This document shows, piece after piece, positions 37,706 through 47,378 of a stretch of 64,000 nucleotides of DNA. The notes beneath the pieces are model-generated. The model ran no database searches. It had not been told where the DNA came from and saw only the letters and a program-made list of their open reading frames with translations. Source of the DNA: Metapseudomonas otitidis (GTDB lineage Bacteria > Pseudomonadota > Gammaproteobacteria > Pseudomonadales > Pseudomonadaceae); assembly GCF_900111835.1 (NCBI RefSeq), contig NZ_FOJP01000007.1, forward strand, positions 62,001 to 126,000, read 5' to 3'. The position numbers were made by a program, and so were the translations under genes. The stretch's first letter is position 1. Each line of letters begins with the position of its first letter.

Positions 37706-39463
37706 GTGCCCAGCCTGTCCCCGCGCATCGTCCCGCTGACCCTGCTGTTCGTCATCGGCCTGCTGCTGTCGATGCACCAGGCTGGGCGCCAGGCCGAGTA
37801 CGCCGCACTGCGCGAGGAAGGCCTCCAGGCCGGCGCCCAGCTCGGCCTCTACCGCAGCGCCCTGAGCACCCTGATCGAGCGCTACCGCGCCCTGCCCGCC
37901 GTGCTGGCCCTGGACCCGGAGCTGCGCCAGGCGCTGCAGGCACCGCTGACCGACGACCTGCAACGGCAGCTCAACCTCAAGCTGGAACGCATCAACGGCG
38001 CCGCCCACTCCTCCACCCTGGAGCTGATGCGCGAAGACGGCCTGGCCATCGCCGCCAGCAACTGGCGCCTGCCCACCAGCTACGTCGGCCACAACTACGG
38101 CTTCCGCCCCTATTTCCTGGAAACCCGCACCCAGGGCACCGGACGCTTCTACGCCGTGGGCGTGGTCAGCGGCATCCCCGGCTACTTCCTCTCCCACGCC
38201 ATCCACGACGATGCCGGGCGCTTCCTCGGCGCCATCGTGGTCAAGCTGGAGTTCCCCGAGCTGGAGCAGCAGTGGCGCGAACGCCCCGACGTGATCCTGG
38301 TGAGCGACGCCAAGGGCATCGTCTTCATCGCCAACCAGCCGGCCTGGCGCTACCGCGAGCTGGCGCCGCTGGACGCAGGGCAGCGTGCCGAGCTGGCAGC
38401 CACCCGGCAGTACGACAAGAAGCCCCTGGTGCCCCTGGAGCACCAGACCCGCGAGGACTTCGGCGAGGGCAGCCGCCTGGTGCGGGTCAACGGCCCGGAC
38501 GGCGAACAGGACTACCTCTGGGAATCCGAGGCGCTGCCCAGCGAGGGCTGGACCCTGCACCTGCTGCACCGCCCCCAGGGCGCCGCCAGCAGCGCCCGCA
38601 CCGCCAGCCTGGCCGCCGGCGGGGTGTGGGCGGCGCTGTTCTTCCTCGGCCTGTTCCTGCAGCAGCGCTGGCGCCTGGCGCGCCTGCGCCAGCAGAGCCG
38701 CGAGGAGCTGGAGCGCCTGGTGGAGCAGCGCACCGCCGACCTGCGCACCGCCCAGGACGGCCTGGTGCAGGCCGCCAAGCTGGCCGCCCTGGGGCAGATG
38801 TCGGCCGCCCTCGCCCACGAGATCAACCAGCCGCTGACCGCCCTGCACATGCACCTGGGCAGCCTGCGCCTGATGCTGGACAACGGGCAGCTGGAACCGG
38901 CGCGCAAGGCCCTCGACCGGCTCGACGAGCTGCTGCGGCGCATGGCCGCCCTCACCGGCCACCTCAAGACCTACGCCCGCCGCACCCCCGGCGGCCTGCG
39001 GGAAACCCTGGAACTCGGCGACGTGGTGGGCAAGGCCCTGCAACTGCTCGCCCCGCGCCTGCGCGACAGCGACGCCCACATCGTCCAGCGCCTGGAGCAG
39101 CCGGCCTGGGTCCAGGGCGACGCCATCCGCCTGGAACAGGTGCTGGTCAACCTGCTGCGCAACGCCCTGGATGCCGTCGACGGCCAGGCTTCGCCAAAGG
39201 TGGAGATCAGCCTGCGACGCGACGGCGAGCACTGGTGCCTGGAGGTCGCCGACAACGGCGGCGGCATCCCCGCCGAGGCCCTGCCCCAGGTCTTCGATCC
39301 CTTCTTCACCACCAAACCGGTGGGCGACGGCCTGGGCCTCGGCCTGGCCGTGTCCTACGCCATCGTCCATGAACTGGGCGGGCGCCTGTCTGCGGAAAAC
39401 CGTGGCCCCGGCGCGGTGTTCCGCCTCAGCCTGCCGGCCAGCCCCCCCGAGGAGCGAGCATGA
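37706..39463 (+). CDS. mifS: Sensor histidine kinase, MifS/DctB-like
   Basis: About 585 residues. N-terminal helix (about 10-27), a periplasmic double-Cache-like sensor (about 30-295), a second helix (about 298-318), a coiled coil, then HisKA with the phospho-acceptor in [10 protein letters not shown] (His near 370) and HATPase with [19 protein letters not shown] and [10 protein letters not shown]. This is the DctB/MifS type that senses dicarboxylates. The start is a guess: GTG 37706 places the first helix correctly, and a longer open frame upstream is antisense to the hydrolase gene. The stop overlaps the regulator start (ATGA). The MifS name rests on the pairing with a sigma-54 activator and the transporter downstream. 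Confidence 0.8.
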
Positions 39464-40806
39464 CCTCCCCCCACGTGATCTTCGTCGACGACGAAGCCGC
39501 CATCCGCGAAGCCGTGCGCGAATGGCTGGAACTCTCCGGCTTCGCCGTGCGCCTGTGCGCCAGCGCCGCCGAGTGCCTGCACGCCCTGGAACCGGACTTC
39601 CCCGGCGTGGTGGTCAGCGACCTGCGCATGCCGGGCATGGACGGCCTGGCCCTGCTGGAAGCGGTCCAGGCCCGCGACCGCGACCTGCCCTTCCTGCTGG
39701 TGACCGGCCACGGCGACGTGCCCCAGGCGGTGGAGGCCATGCGCCTGGGCGCCTATGACTTCATCGAGAAGCCCTTCACCCCCGAGCGCCTGCTGGGCAG
39801 CCTCAAGCGCGCGCTGGAGAAGCGCCGCCTGCAGCAGGAGAACCGCCGCCTGCGCCAGCAGGCGGACAGCCGCGCGCAACTGGACGGCCGCCTGCTGGGC
39901 ATCTCCCGGCCCATCCTGCACCTGCGCAAACAGGTGCTGGACCTGGCGCAGACCCCGGTGAACGTCCTGCTGCGGGGCGACACCGGCAGCGGCAAGGAGC
40001 TCGTCGCGCGCTGCCTGCACGACTTCGGCCCGCGCGCGGAACGGCCCTTCGTCGCCCTCAACTGCGCCGCCATCCCCGAGAACCTCTTCGAGAGCGAGCT
40101 GTTCGGCCATGAAAGCGGCGCCTTCACCGGCGCCCAGGGCAAGCGCATCGGCAAGCTGGAGCACGCCAACGGCGGCACCCTGTTCCTCGACGAGATCGAG
40201 AGCATGCCCCTGGCCCAGCAGGTGAAGCTGCTGCGGGTGCTGCAGGAGCAGCAACTGGAGCGCCTGGGCTCCAACCAGAGCATCCGCATCGACGTGCGGG
40301 TGGTGGCCGCCACCAAGCCGGACCTGCGCGACGAAGTACGCGCCGGGCGCTTCCGCGAGGACCTGCTCTACCGCCTGAACGTCGCCGAGCTGCAGCTGCC
40401 GCCGCTGCGGGACCGCCGCGAGGACATCCCCCTGCTGTTCGAACACTTCGCCGCCCTGGCCGGCGAACGCCTGCAGCGCCCGGTGCCGAACCTCACCCCG
40501 GCCGAGCTGGCGCACCTGCTGGCCCACGACTGGCCCGGCAACGTGCGCGAGCTGGGCAACGCCGCCGAGCGCCACGTGCTGGGGCTGGCCGCGCCGCTGG
40601 ACGCTCCCCGCGAGGACAGTGCGCCGTCCCTGGCCGAGCTGATGGAAGCCTACGAGGCGCAATGCCTGCGCCAGGCCCTGGCCCGCAGCAAGGGCGACAT
40701 CAAGGCGGTGATGGCGCTGCTGCAACTGCCGCGCCGCACCCTCAACGAGAAGATGCAACGCCACGGCCTGGCCCGTGGTGACTTCCTCCCCGGCGAAGAC
40801 GACTGA
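39460..40806 (+). CDS. mifR: Sigma-54 response regulator, MifR/DctD-like
   Basis: A 448-residue NtrC-type activator: REC domain with Asp54 and Lys104 (IEKPF), AAA+ domain with Walker A GDTGSGKE (173-180), the sigma-54 contact loop GAFTGA (220-225), and a C-terminal Fis-type helix-turn-helix (LLQLPRRTLNEKMQRHGL). Together with the coupled kinase it should activate an RpoN promoter. A strong match to such a promoter lies 1.6 kb downstream, before the MFS transporter; in P. aeruginosa MifSR is known to control alpha-ketoglutarate transport in this way. Confidence 0.88.
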   Translation: MTSPHVIFVDDEAAIREAVREWLELSGFAVRLCASAAECLHALEPDFPGVVVSDLRMPGMDGLALLEAVQARDRDLPFLLVTGHGDVPQAVEAMRLGAYDFIEKPFTPERLLGSLKRALEKRRLQQENRRLRQQADSRAQLDGRLLGISRPILHLRKQVLDLAQTPVNVLLRGDTGSGKELVARCLHDFGPRAERPFVALNCAAIPENLFESELFGHESGAFTGAQGKRIGKLEHANGGTLFLDEIESMPLAQQVKLLRVLQEQQLERLGSNQSIRIDVRVVAATKPDLRDEVRAGRFREDLLYRLNVAELQLPPLRDRREDIPLLFEHFAALAGERLQRPVPNLTPAELAHLLAHDWPGNVRELGNAAERHVLGLAAPLDAPREDSAPSLAELMEAYEAQCLRQALARSKGDIKAVMALLQLPRRTLNEKMQRHGLARGDFLPGEDD

Positions 40807-40832
40807 GCCATCCACAGGGCCTTCCGGCCCTG

Positions 40833-42226
40833 TGGTCATAAATCCACCTGAATGCCGAAGGCCCCGTCAATCGGGGCCTTCAGCACTGTGGACACAGCTT
40901 TTCAACAGGTTGATACACGCTATCTGGGGACAGCTCCCAGGCGGAGCTTTTCCACACTCCGCACCCCCTTCACTCCGCAAAATCCCTTGTATGGCGTGGC
41001 CTTGCGAAAAACATGATCAGTAAATGCACAGTTTGCTCCGTGCCGCGCCCGACACGGCCTGTGTACAACTGAAAACAGTTTATCCACAGATTTTTCCCCT
41101 TTAAGCGAGGACAATTGTGGACAGTACCGCCAGCGCGTCGCTCGCTGTGTGCATCCAATCGTCCTCGCGCCCCTGGTCAAAACGCGATCAGATCGATGAA
41201 AGCCTTATGAATAAAGGCCTGAAAGCAATTGAGCACAGCTTATCAACAGGCTGTTCCACCTGATCTGGGGACTGTTGATAGCGTGATGAACAGGCAAACA
41301 CCACCGCTGCGTGCGGTGCGCCCGGGCCATCGCTCAGAATTCGTACAAACCCTTGGAGGCCTTGCAATCCCTGGTCTTCAGAGAGGTACAGACAGCTTGT
41401 ACACAGGCCCTTCCACCGTTATTGGGGACGGTGTGGATAGCAGGGAGAACGCCCCTTCTGACAGGCCGACTGCCGCTCCGGCCCGGCCTGTACGGCACAC
41501 GCCAGATGCCGGCCAGCAAGGGCTCAATTAATGATCAATCGGCTGAACAGCCCGCCAGCCGTGGGTAGCAGACAGGTGCGTACAGTTTTTCCACAGGGTC
41601 TTCCCCGGATACTGGGGGCAATGTGGACAGCGAGGCCACCGGCGCAGGGCCTTTTCCACACGACTGGAGAGCCCGCGCATCGATCAAAAAATAATCTAAA
41701 CGCCAAAAGCCCCGCCAAATCAGGCCTCCGACGGTCTGGCTACAGCTTGTCCACAGGCTCATCCCCGGCGTTTGGGGACAGGTGGGGATCATGCAGCGGT
41801 TTTGTCCACAGTTCACAGCCGCGGAAAACCGGCGCATGGCAGGGCCCAGCTACTGATCAGAATCTGTACGAACGTCTGAAAGGCCCATCGATACTGGGCT
41901 TTGTCGATCTATCCACAGCTTGGGCACAGTACCGTCCACGGGAATTGGGGACGATACCCAACAGGCCGTATCCGCTAACTTATCCCGTTGGACATTAAGT
42001 GATCAAACCTCCACAGGCAGCGTGCAGCCTGGCCTCTGGCGTGGTGGCTACAGCTTTTCCACAGGCTAATCCAAGCCATTTGGGGACAGTCGCCCACAGG
42101 GCGGACGCCCATCCACAGGCCCTGCCCTGTGCAAATCCTGATCGAATGCCTAAAAGCCACGGAAGACGGGGTATACGGGAAGCTGCCCACAGCTTGTCCA
42201 CGCTGTGCTCCACCGGAATCGGGGAT
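40833..42226. repeat. Nine-unit array of DnaA-box-like modules
   Basis: This gene-free segment holds nine diverged but rigid modules. Each has (A) a box TGATCA or close variant, (B) ACAGCTTNTCCACAGG or close variant, (C) GGGGAC or close variant. Box A starts: 40833, 41014, 41185, 41331, 41532, 41681, 41854, 42000, 42139. Box B starts: 40894, 41075, 41235, 41392, 41582, 41742, 41915, 42050, 42189. Box C starts: 40926, 41107, 41267, 41424, 41614, 41774, 41947, 42082, 42221. A-to-B is 61 or 50 bp (61,61,50,61,50,61,61,50,50), exactly one helical turn apart; B-to-C is always 32 bp. Box B contains DnaA-box-like 9-mers (TTATCCACA, TTTTCCACA, TTGTCCACA, TTATCAACA). Units 2-5 end with an inverted box (TGTGGACAG, TGTGGATAG or TGTTGATAG). 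Several A-B spacers can form a hairpin built on AAGGCC/GGCCTT. Unit period is 135-190 bp. No coding frame is credible across it. Confidence 0.9.
40857..40881. terminator. Hairpin after mifR-like gene, inside repeat unit 1
   Basis: GAAGGCCCC / GGGGCCTTC with a 7-base loop. A second stem, CCACAGGGCC / GGCCCTGTGG, lies just before it at 40812-40835. Neither has a U-tract. The first also occupies the spacer position where units 3 and 7 carry hairpins, so it may belong to the array rather than to transcription termination. Confidence 0.5.
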
Positions 42227-42412
42227 GAACACCTGCCCCTGGCGCTTCCCATGTGCGGCGCGGTGCCCGGAAGCCATGCCGAAGGCATGCGCACACCAGC
42301 ACCGGGCACTCGGCAAGAACCCGCTCATGGCCCGTTCCGGCATCGGCGGGATTCCGCGCAGCGATGCCCCTCCATCGAGCCGAAACCCAGCAACGGCGCG
42401 GCCTCCGGTGCC

Positions 42413-42428
42413 TGGCACAGGTCCTGCT
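42413..42428 (+). promoter_or_regulatory. Sigma-54 promoter of the dicarboxylate transporter
   Basis: TGGCACAGGTCCTGCT: the -24 TGGCAC and -12 TGCT elements have GG and GC exactly 12 bp apart, as required. It lies 61 bp before ATG 42490. The upstream MifR-like activator is the obvious partner. Confidence 0.85.
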
Positions 42429-42489
42429 ATGGCGCCTGTCCAAGCCCGGCCAGTCCGTGCACACAACAACAACGACTCGAGGAACCACG

Positions 42490-43797
42490 ATGGAAAGCTC
42501 CAGCACCCTGACTGCCTCAGCAGCAACCCGCACCACATCCCAGCGCATCAAGTCGATCTTCAGCGGCTCGGTGGGCAACCTGGTGGAGTGGTACGACTGG
42601 TACGTCTACGCCGCCTTCTCGCTGTACTTCGCCAAGGCCTTCTTCCCCCAGGGCGACCTGACCGCCCAGCTGCTGAACACCGCCGCGATCTTCGCCGTGG
42701 GCTTCCTGATGCGCCCCATCGGCGGCTGGCTGATGGGCATCTACGCCGACCGCAAGGGCCGCAAGGCTGCCCTGCTGGCCTCGGTGCTGCTGATGTGCTT
42801 CGGCTCGCTGATCATCGCCCTGACCCCCAGCTACGAGAGCATCGGCATCGCCGCGCCCATCCTGCTGGTGATCGCCCGCCTGCTGCAGGGCCTCTCGGTG
42901 GGTGGTGAATACGGCACCTCCGCCACCTACCTGTCGGAGATGGCCACCAAGGAACAGCGCGGCTTCTACTCCAGCTTCCAGTACGTGACGCTGATCTCCG
43001 GCCAGCTCATCGCCCTGGCGGTGCTGATCGTGCTGCAGCAGACCCTGACCACCGAGCAGCTGGACAGCTGGGGCTGGCGCGTACCCTTCTTCATCGGCGC
43101 GGCCTGCGCCGTGGTGGCGATGTTCCTGCGTCGCGGCATGGAGGAGACCGACTCCTTCACCCAGAAGAAGGACAAGCCCAAGGAAAGCCTGCTGCGCACT
43201 CTGATGCGCCACCCCAAGGAAGTGCTGACCGTGGTCGGCCTGACCATGGGCGGGACCCTGGCCTTCTACACCTACACCACCTACATGCAGAAGTACCTGG
43301 TCAACACCGTGGGCATGAGCAAGGACGACTCGACCATGATCTCGGCCGCCACGCTGTTCCTGTTCATGCTGCTGCAGCCCATCGTCGGCGCGCTCTCGGA
43401 CAAGATCGGCCGGCGCCCGATCCTGATCGCCTTCGGCGTGCTGGGCACCCTGTTCACCTACCCGATCCTCAGCACCCTGCACACCATCGAGACCTGGTGG
43501 GGCGCGTTCTTCCTGATCATGGCGGCGCTGGTGATCGTCAGCGGCTACACCTCGATCAACGCCGTGGTGAAGGCCGAGCTGTTCCCCACCGAGATCCGCG
43601 CCCTGGGCGTGGGCCTGCCCTACGCGCTGACCGTGTCCATCTTCGGCGGCACCGCCGAGTACATCGCGCTGTGGTTCAAGAGCATCGGCATGGAGAGCGG
43701 CTTCTACTGGTACGTGACCGCCTGCATCGCCTGCTCGCTGATGGTGTACCTGTTCATGAAGGACACCCGCACCCACTCGCGCATGAACGACGACTGA
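42490..43797 (+). CDS. MFS dicarboxylate (alpha-ketoglutarate-type) transporter
   Basis: A 435-residue MHS-family symporter with 12 helices. GNLVEWYDWYVYAAFSLYFAKAFFP (about 25-50), the loop motif YADRKGRKAAL (about 85) and RLLQGLSVGGEYGTSATYLSE (about 130-150) match KgtP-type proteins and the P. aeruginosa MifR-regulated alpha-ketoglutarate transporter. ATG 42490 is chosen: it follows AGGAACC and precedes the conserved Ser/Thr-rich N-terminus; the longer open frame crosses the promoter. A terminator follows. Confidence 0.9.
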   Translation: MESSSTLTASAATRTTSQRIKSIFSGSVGNLVEWYDWYVYAAFSLYFAKAFFPQGDLTAQLLNTAAIFAVGFLMRPIGGWLMGIYADRKGRKAALLASVLLMCFGSLIIALTPSYESIGIAAPILLVIARLLQGLSVGGEYGTSATYLSEMATKEQRGFYSSFQYVTLISGQLIALAVLIVLQQTLTTEQLDSWGWRVPFFIGAACAVVAMFLRRGMEETDSFTQKKDKPKESLLRTLMRHPKEVLTVVGLTMGGTLAFYTYTTYMQKYLVNTVGMSKDDSTMISAATLFLFMLLQPIVGALSDKIGRRPILIAFGVLGTLFTYPILSTLHTIETWWGAFFLIMAALVIVSGYTSINAVVKAELFPTEIRALGVGLPYALTVSIFGGTAEYIALWFKSIGMESGFYWYVTACIACSLMVYLFMKDTRTHSRMNDD

Positions 43798-43941: not shown

Positions 43942-44919
43942 TCACTCCCGCAACCGACAGGCCTCAAGCCCCGCCGAGAGGACGGCCGCCTCCTGCGGCT
44001 CGCTGAAGATCAGCTCCAGCCGCGAATCCCGCCGCCACTCACTGGGGCGCCAGTGCAGCGGGGCGCCGTCCAGGGCGTTGGCCGAGACCCAGCCTTGCGC
44101 GCTGTGGATAACCAGCTTGGCGCGGCGCCAGTCCAGGCCCTGGAGCCAGGCGGCCAGGTGCTCCGGGTCGAAGCGTTGGGACGGGTGCCAGCGCCAGCCG
44201 ATGCTCCAACCCTCCCCCTGGCCACCCGCCTGGCAGAGGGGTCGGGTGGGGTCTGTCCACAGGGTCGGCAAAGACGGCGGGGCACTGGGCAGCGCGAGGT
44301 TATCCACAGCCGCGCCGACGCGCGCCGCCAGGCCGGGCAGGCGTTCCAGCGGCAGCTGGCCCTGCTGGGTCCAGCACTGGGGTACCGCCGGCAGGGCCTG
44401 GGCGATGCGCTGGCGAACGTCGGCTTGCAGGCCCTCGGCCTTGTTCAGCACCAGCAGCCCGGCACCTTCCAGTGCCGCCTGCTGGCTGGCGGGCAGCGGC
44501 TCGCCCCGGGCCAGGGCCTGGGCATCCAGCACCACCAGGGTGGGCTGCAGGGCCAGCACCTCGGTCCAGGGCGCCGCAACGAGCTGCCGACGCAACTCAG
44601 CGGGATGGCCCAGCCCGGACGGTTCGATGAACAGCCGGTCCGGCCGCGCCTTGCGCAGCAGGCGCCCGAGCCCGACCTGGAAGGGCGCGCCGTTGACGCA
44701 GCAGAGGCAGCCGCCGGCCACCTCGGCCAGGCTGATGCCGTCCTCGCCGGTTTCCAGCAGCGCGGCATCCAGGCCGACCTGGCCGAATTCGTTGATAAGC
44801 ACCGCCCAGCGTTCGCCCACGGGGCGTTGGGCCAGCAGGTGGCGGATCAGGCTGGTCTTGCCGGCACCGAGAGGGCCGGCCACCAGGTGGGTGGGGATGT
44901 GGGTCAGCATGGAGGCCAT
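43942..44919 (-). CDS. COG0523 (CobW-type) metal GTPase
   Basis: A 325-residue G3E GTPase. Walker A is GPLGAGKTS (15-23), the metal site is CLCC (71-74) in the switch region, Walker B is IEPSG, and the guanine site is NKAE. A CobW C-terminal domain follows (about 240-325). COG0523 proteins near zigA/dksA2/folE2 supply zinc to target proteins in starvation. No Zur box was found directly before this gene. Two TTATCCACA motifs fall inside the coding sequence. Confidence 0.88.
   Translation of the reverse strand: MASMLTHIPTHLVAGPLGAGKTSLIRHLLAQRPVGERWAVLINEFGQVGLDAALLETGEDGISLAEVAGGCLCCVNGAPFQVGLGRLLRKARPDRLFIEPSGLGHPAELRRQLVAAPWTEVLALQPTLVVLDAQALARGEPLPASQQAALEGAGLLVLNKAEGLQADVRQRIAQALPAVPQCWTQQGQLPLERLPGLAARVGAAVDNLALPSAPPSLPTLWTDPTRPLCQAGGQGEGWSIGWRWHPSQRFDPEHLAAWLQGLDWRRAKLVIHSAQGWVSANALDGAPLHWRPSEWRRDSRLELIFSEPQEAAVLSAGLEACRLRE

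Positions 44920-46172: not shown

Positions 46173-46173
<1 letters not shown>
45529..46173 (-). CDS. DUF1826 family protein
   Basis: A 214-residue soluble protein. The segments CPRYHVDHVPLRLITTYAGAGSHWL (about 121-145) and HVALFKGEKW (about 177) with three conserved His fit the DUF1826 family, which is usually encoded with zinc-responsive COG0523 genes. The start overlaps the zigA stop by one base, so translation is coupled. A metal-related role is inferred from context; no reaction is known. Confidence 0.82.

Positions 46174-47378
<1,205 letters not shown>

Follow-up and report, generated by a model that had tools for sequence, protein, structure and literature searches.

A tandem array of nine modules, each about 100 bp long and all on the + strand, occupies positions 40834..42228 (+) of the window, the whole 64-kb stretch of DNA analysed here. 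Judging from the sequence, these are probably nine DARS-family elements, each made up of a Fis-type site, a linker of about 50 bp and three DnaA boxes ordered and spaced as in the Escherichia coli DARS sites, two head-to-tail and the third inverted. This layout, homology to E. coli DARS1, class-wide spread, a number of about 30 copies per genome in the genus and a concentration towards oriC were shown by computation. By analogy with E. coli, we infer that the modules may reactivate ADP-DnaA.

Organization of the array

The array is located in a gap without genes of 1683 bp (40807-42489). On one side is the gene of a sigma-54-type response regulator (39460-40806), on the other that of an MFS transporter (42490-43797) (Pfam). 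The gap has a G+C content of 59%, compared with 68% for the whole window. A 39-nt block recurs nine times in it, with starts at 40893, 41074, 41234, 41391, 41581, 41741, 41914, 42049 and 42188, and the module pitch is 135-190 bp (Table 1). The first-pass annotation had described nine modules in a 1.68-kb gene-free gap, with a box B and a box C always 32 bp apart, and both statements are confirmed, the distance being 32 bp in 9/9 modules. The modules are alike in these two boxes and in the distance between them, and differ at most other places. Box C reads GGGGAC in six of the nine modules, and GAGGAC, GGGGGC or GGGGAT in the remaining three. A GATC-bearing box A precedes box B by 50 or 61 bp in 7/9 modules, while the modules with blocks at 40893 and 41391 have TGGTCA or CGCTCA at 61 bp instead; in several modules, both positions are occupied. 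A plasmid search with the array gave no match.

Table 1. Predicted features of the nine modules, with window positions and scores.
Module	Position	Strand	Fis-type site	B1	B2	B3 (inverted)	R2 (bits)	Consensus score
1	40834..40933	+	40834-40848	40899-40907	40911-40919	40925-40933	40.0	28/37
2	41015..41114	+	41015-41029	41080-41088 (exact TTATCCACA)	41092-41100	41106-41114	46.9	29/37
3	41175..41274	+	41175-41189	41240-41248	41252-41260	41266-41274	42.3	27/37
4	41332..41431	+	41332-41346	41397-41405	41409-41417	41423-41431	41.2	26/37
5	41522..41621	+	41522-41536	41587-41595	41599-41607	41613-41621	57.0	30/37
6	41682..41781	+	41682-41696	41747-41755	41759-41767	41773-41781	46.5	29/37
7	41855..41954	+	41855-41869	41920-41928	41932-41940	41946-41954	37.7	25/37
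8	41990..42089	+	41990-42004	42055-42063	42067-42075	42081-42089	35.4	28/37
9	42129..42228	+	42129-42143	42194-42202	42206-42214	42220-42228	39.0	26/37

The array was also delimited by a consensus-only score (Fis site at -65; DnaA boxes at 0, +12 and +26, the last inverted), with offsets chosen after the modules and DARS1/2 had been seen: exactly nine sites in the 64 kb, on both strands, reached at least 24/37, and all nine fall inside the array. In 200 dinucleotide shuffles of the region, the mean was 0.01 sites at this level and the maximum was 1. The profile R2 (see below), a model without window sequence, recovered the same nine modules in the window search with E values from 3.7e-10 to 6.6e-17, plus one additional weak match, overlapping and on the reverse strand (E 0.006).

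Two CobW-family genes are found near each other downstream of the array, at 43942-44919 and 46173-47378 of the window (- strand; Pfam).

DnaA boxes of the core

Scores against TTWTNCACA, the DnaA-box consensus (8 positions counted), indicate that box B is a DnaA box (B1), followed 12 bp further by a weak second one (B2), and that box C, GGGGAC, is part of a predicted inverted and degenerate DnaA box (B3). Over 41 genus modules, the DnaA-box profile shows peaks of 6.88 at 0 (+), 5.29 at +12 (+) and 5.71 at +26 (-), all three exceeding the 99.9% permutation level of 5.05. For the window nine alone, the means out of 8 are 7.11 for B1, 5.22 for B2 and 4.78 for B3 against a 99.9% level of 5.44; since the means of B2 and B3 are below that level, B1 alone passes it. 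Individual modules of the window match at 6-8 (B1), 4-6 (B2) and 4-5 (B3) of the 8 positions. When the spacing around B1 was left free in the window nine, 12 then 14 was the best of 100 combinations (10.0/16; runner-up 8.44). A fourth DnaA-box-like peak was observed 11 bp before B1 (CTATCCACAG; for example at window 41909), with a value of 5.07 in the 41-module set, barely above 5.05.

The presence of DnaA boxes in box B, as previously proposed, is thus supported by the consensus profile and by B1 standing above the permutation level. The three boxes as originally named were placed at the right distances, but GGGGAC does not stand as an element of its own. The general proposal of protein-binding DNA with a fixed geometry is likewise favoured by these patterns.

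Upstream Fis-type site

The 50- and 61-bp distances of box A were correct, but its status as a separate element was not: the two positions are best read as half-sites, 11 bp apart, of one Fis-type dyad. The TGATCA-like half-sites form a 15-bp dyad that matches the Fis consensus GNTYAAWWWTTRANC, as given in an excerpt of PMC2816674, at -65. The mean fit at this place in the window nine is 10.44/13, with at least 10/13 in 9/9 modules, and in each of four sets (window, genus, order, class) none of 1000 permuted motifs did as well at -65/-66. The DNA upstream of class-level triples, which had not been used in finding them, has a TG..AAAAA..CAA box at the expected place (78 triples for this profile), and the Fis consensus fits there at -66 (81 triples for the IHF and Fis tests).

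IHF was the motif tried first at this upstream place and Fis the second; the IHF consensus did not fit, staying under the 99.9% level in all four sets, and IHF was rejected as the upstream factor when the Fis consensus fitted the same place. Over box B, the IHF consensus was above its level at one place, in the 41-module set only (5.93 vs 5.66). Since the Fis consensus is an A/T-centred dyad and two motifs were tried, a different dyad-binding protein could be the one that occupies -65.

Distribution in related genomes

Plain DNA searches in the genus gave only short pieces, in 7/18 genomes with the own genome included, and a profile was therefore needed. R1 is a sequence-only model of 41 modules from the window array, another array of the own genome and five relatives; its alignment holds 41/43 modules, two near-identical L004 copies being excluded. 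It gave 27-37 matches per genome (E<=0.01) in 18/18 genus genomes, among the matches listed. In the family, 144/148 genomes have a match at E<=1e-4, and the four without a match (G028, G044, G055, G066) all belong to genus g12 and have genomes of 1.9-3.3 Mb, which may reflect either a loss of the modules or a lack of sensitivity of the model. In the order, the proportion at the same threshold is 91/145; outside the family, 60 of 86 matched order genomes have one match, copy numbers being lower bounds throughout (23, 24 and 12 candidates scored per genome at family, order and class level).

The best R1 matches in the order provided 40 places for analysis. In the order-level alignment, the middle box B2 is exact TTATCCACA in 31/41 rows, and one row, L077, is without the triple. 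The second model, R2, was made of 39 order-level and 7 genus elements and contains neither window nor E. coli DNA; its alignment took 39/41 order-level rows, leaving out L077 for its lack of the triple and a second L070 element. R2 matched 247/274 class genomes at E<=1e-3 and gave no match at this threshold in the other 27/274.

The layout was also found in a model-free way. Pairs of consensus boxes that face each other at a distance of 0-14 bp gave 140 strand matches (76 places) in 52/114 class genomes, and the gap between them is exactly 5 in 140/140 strand matches; the reversed-pattern control gave 2, and the variable-gap reading of the pattern search was verified against a script count. 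No such pair of facing consensus boxes occurs in the own genome. In the named collection, at least 120 stretches contain the exact triple, and 80 listed titles with it comprise 68 beta- or gammaproteobacteria, 10 other groups and 2 unspecific titles.

Some arrays differ in composition from that of the window. In L005, L006, L007 and L012 (relatives and the own contig C18), two module flavours alternate with a pitch of about 124 bp, one ending TCCACNG..GGGG and the other TGCACAG..TGTGTGCAA, and the window array consists of the first flavour only. The syntenic array of G017, which has a window-like gene neighbourhood (L004 951-1810), is made of five near-identical 204-bp repeats, each with an additional REP-like stretch between modules, which looks like a recent spread by tandem duplication. 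Elsewhere in the own genome, one module pair adjoins the gene of a REP-associated tyrosine transposase (NF047646; L123 1673-2296, G000:C10).

Position relative to the origin

The first-pass annotation had placed the array near the origin while holding that it is not oriC, and both views agree with the map: dnaA, the single dnaA match of the genome, is 61.4 kb downstream of the window array and outside the window. oriC was rejected as a candidate on account of this distance and because the models give no match in two oriC regions (R2: nothing in the E. coli oriC region at E<=1, nothing around the own dnaA/oriC at E<=0.01).

Among the matches listed, an array is present 28-78 kb upstream of dnaA in 15/15 measured genus genomes (15/18, with G005, G013 and G015 left out); in 11 genomes it is on the opposite strand from dnaA, and in 4 on the dnaA strand. 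Its gene neighbourhood is the same as that of the window in G017 and different in G002. In three complete genomes, the matches form 10, 11 and 10 clusters at corresponding distances, with a second array on the other arm at 0.42-0.45 Mb and 30/31 clusters in the origin-proximal half; these genomes are related and hence not independent. The own genome, in 50 contigs, has a second array of the same modules at G000:C18:385035-388152 (L111).

An orthologue of DARS1 or DARS2 by place was also rejected, since the window array is between the response regulator and MFS transporter genes and not at bioD-uvrB or mutH. Neither bioD-uvrB nor mutH was present among the genes sampled beside eight other module places of the own genome.

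Comparison with E. coli DARS and datA

In 20.5 kb of E. coli DNA comprising the DARS1, DARS2 and datA regions, R1 found DARS1 at E 3.1e-4, while DARS2 and datA gave no match at E<=1. In 30.5 kb of E. coli DNA, R2 found DARS1 with 37.1 bits and E 5.1e-11, a two-box datA piece with 16.9 bits, slightly above the DARS2 core with 15.4 bits, and further weaker pieces at DARS1 and DARS2. Both E. coli DARS1 and DARS2 have boxes at 0, +12 and +26 with the last inverted (offsets 12 then 14), which is the spacing of the window; that the two sites share their spacing, with box I inverted, is stated in an excerpt of PMC5742627. The 3-bp double boxes of DARS, as printed in part of PMC11317965, are also present at oriC, datA and polA, among others; a double box by itself is therefore not DARS-specific, and what distinguishes DARS is the inverted box. 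The best datA triple scores 21/27 vs 25 for DARS1, and datA lacks an inverted box at +26. The earlier suggestion of a DARS-like locus is supported in layout and in homology, DARS1 having been found by models built without it. The datA-like version is not supported, since the upstream box does not match the IHF consensus.

E. coli DARS1, in the 101-bp bioD-uvrB gap, resembles the modules in its box positions and in being of about equal length, and the sequence homology covers part of the flank (R2 positions 31-120). In contrast to the modules, it is a single copy with boxes nearer to the consensus and other neighbouring genes, and lacks a good Fis site at -65 (8/13 for the best one in the vicinity). 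DARS2, the 455-bp site upstream of mutH, has the same core spacing and involves Fis, which takes part in its activity according to an excerpt of PMC4245941; however, it needs IHF and Fis sites in a regulatory region of about 400 bp, whereas the modules have a single Fis-type site, separated from the core by about 50 bp, and no IHF consensus. datA shares intergenic DnaA boxes and the head-to-tail double box with the modules but is IHF-dependent.

The arrays are also closer to oriC than the mid-replichore DARS1 and DARS2. A DnaA-box density peak near oriC in E. coli, described in part of PMC12371093, similarly provides many early-doubling DnaA sites, although these are scattered single boxes, and the modules are composite and closely packed in tandem. 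The excerpts of PMC4245941, PMC8682772 and PMC6090056 report DARS or DARS-like sites from E. coli, from its close relatives and from Vibrio cholerae. The Vibrio cholerae and enteric sites (PMC6090056, PMC8682772) are DARS-type sites outside E. coli, reported at E. coli-like locations, and no tandem arrays are described for them in those excerpts. In the open-licence PMC literature, to which the search was confined, no title was found that deals with DARS in Pseudomonas or with DARS sites in tandem arrays, and the excerpts of PMC10218098 and PMC3056050 are silent on DARS in Pseudomonas.

Proposed function and alternative explanations

In E. coli, DARS binds ADP-DnaA, and the molecules bound to the two boxes that face each other make head-to-head contact and release their ADP (excerpts of PMC5742627 and PMC8682772). 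Hda and Fis, as partners, are present in 18/18 genus genomes each, and the own DnaA is 69% identical to that of E. coli. By the same route, ADP-DnaA would assemble on the core of a module, the facing DnaA pair on B2 and B3 would loosen the bound ADP, and the released DnaA would recharge with ATP, with Fis at -65 assisting or gating the reactivation. The many early-doubling copies would set the pool of active and bound DnaA, and thereby the timing of the next initiation. Several observations count against this reading: the low B2 and B3 means of the window nine, the lack of facing consensus-box pairs in the own genome, the R2 score of the datA piece above that of the DARS2 core, the poor Fis site of DARS1, the location of the arrays nearer to oriC than DARS1/2, and the class and family genomes that gave no match.

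A broader reading is quite possible, without being the expected one: the Fis site plus DARS core may be the class-ancestral, general form of DnaA reactivation, DARS1 a Fis-less remnant of it, and the genus may have multiplied it to about 30 copies, most of them in two tandem arrays that flank oriC at conserved distances. Site number and early doubling, and not two mid-replichore sites, would then set the timing of initiation.

Titration is the main rival to reactivation, and the poor consensus fit of B2 and B3 in the window leaves room for it; both would explain a bank of sites placed for early doubling. The DARS-descended modules might now mainly hold DnaA beside oriC, with nucleotide exchange lost or minor; with as many as 27 boxes in the nine modules, duplicated shortly after initiation, the level of free DnaA would fall. 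The position of the arrays 28-78 kb from dnaA in the 15/15 measured genomes, the origin-proximal location of nearly all clusters in the three complete genomes and the contrast between a well-kept B1 and poorer B2 and B3 agree with this, as does the E. coli density peak, which is read as a titration trait in the excerpt of PMC12371093. We consider it unlikely all the same, because simple titration could do without an inverted third box, fixed 12/14 offsets or a Fis-type site at a constant distance, and these features persist across genus, order and class. A datA-like function, in which IHF bending between DnaA boxes would promote hydrolysis of DnaA-ATP, could draw on the DnaA boxes near the origin and on the R2 match to the two-box datA piece; it is very improbable given the unfit IHF consensus in the four sets and the missing inverted third box of datA.

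Equally slight is the chance of a chromosome-organising element, in which arrays of Fis (and DnaA) would shape the origin region. The tandem Fis-type sites present in every module would suit such a role, but it leaves the DARS-core layout unexplained, and single copies without arrays persist in distant genomes. Least credible of all is that the modules are a structured-RNA family or a coding remnant. Hairpins of AAGGCC/GGCCTT in some linkers had led to the RNA proposal, and one inverted repeat was detected in module 1. Against this, RNAalifold gave no consensus structure (0 pairs) over 41 modules and Rfam no family match in the window, so the structured-RNA claim finds no support; 11 ORFs of at least 80 aa lie mainly in the gap, and 0/5 of those tested match Pfam (E<=0.01).

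If reactivation by DARS-family modules is the true reading, replication timing in this chromosome may rest on a whole bank of DARS-like sites. If the modules work, another large bacterial group controls DnaA through tandem site banks near oriC, and the debate on DnaA switch vs titration can draw on a natural case where the number and location of the sites vary between species. The class-wide layout is also a simple guide to sites of DnaA control in proteobacteria that are uncharacterised.
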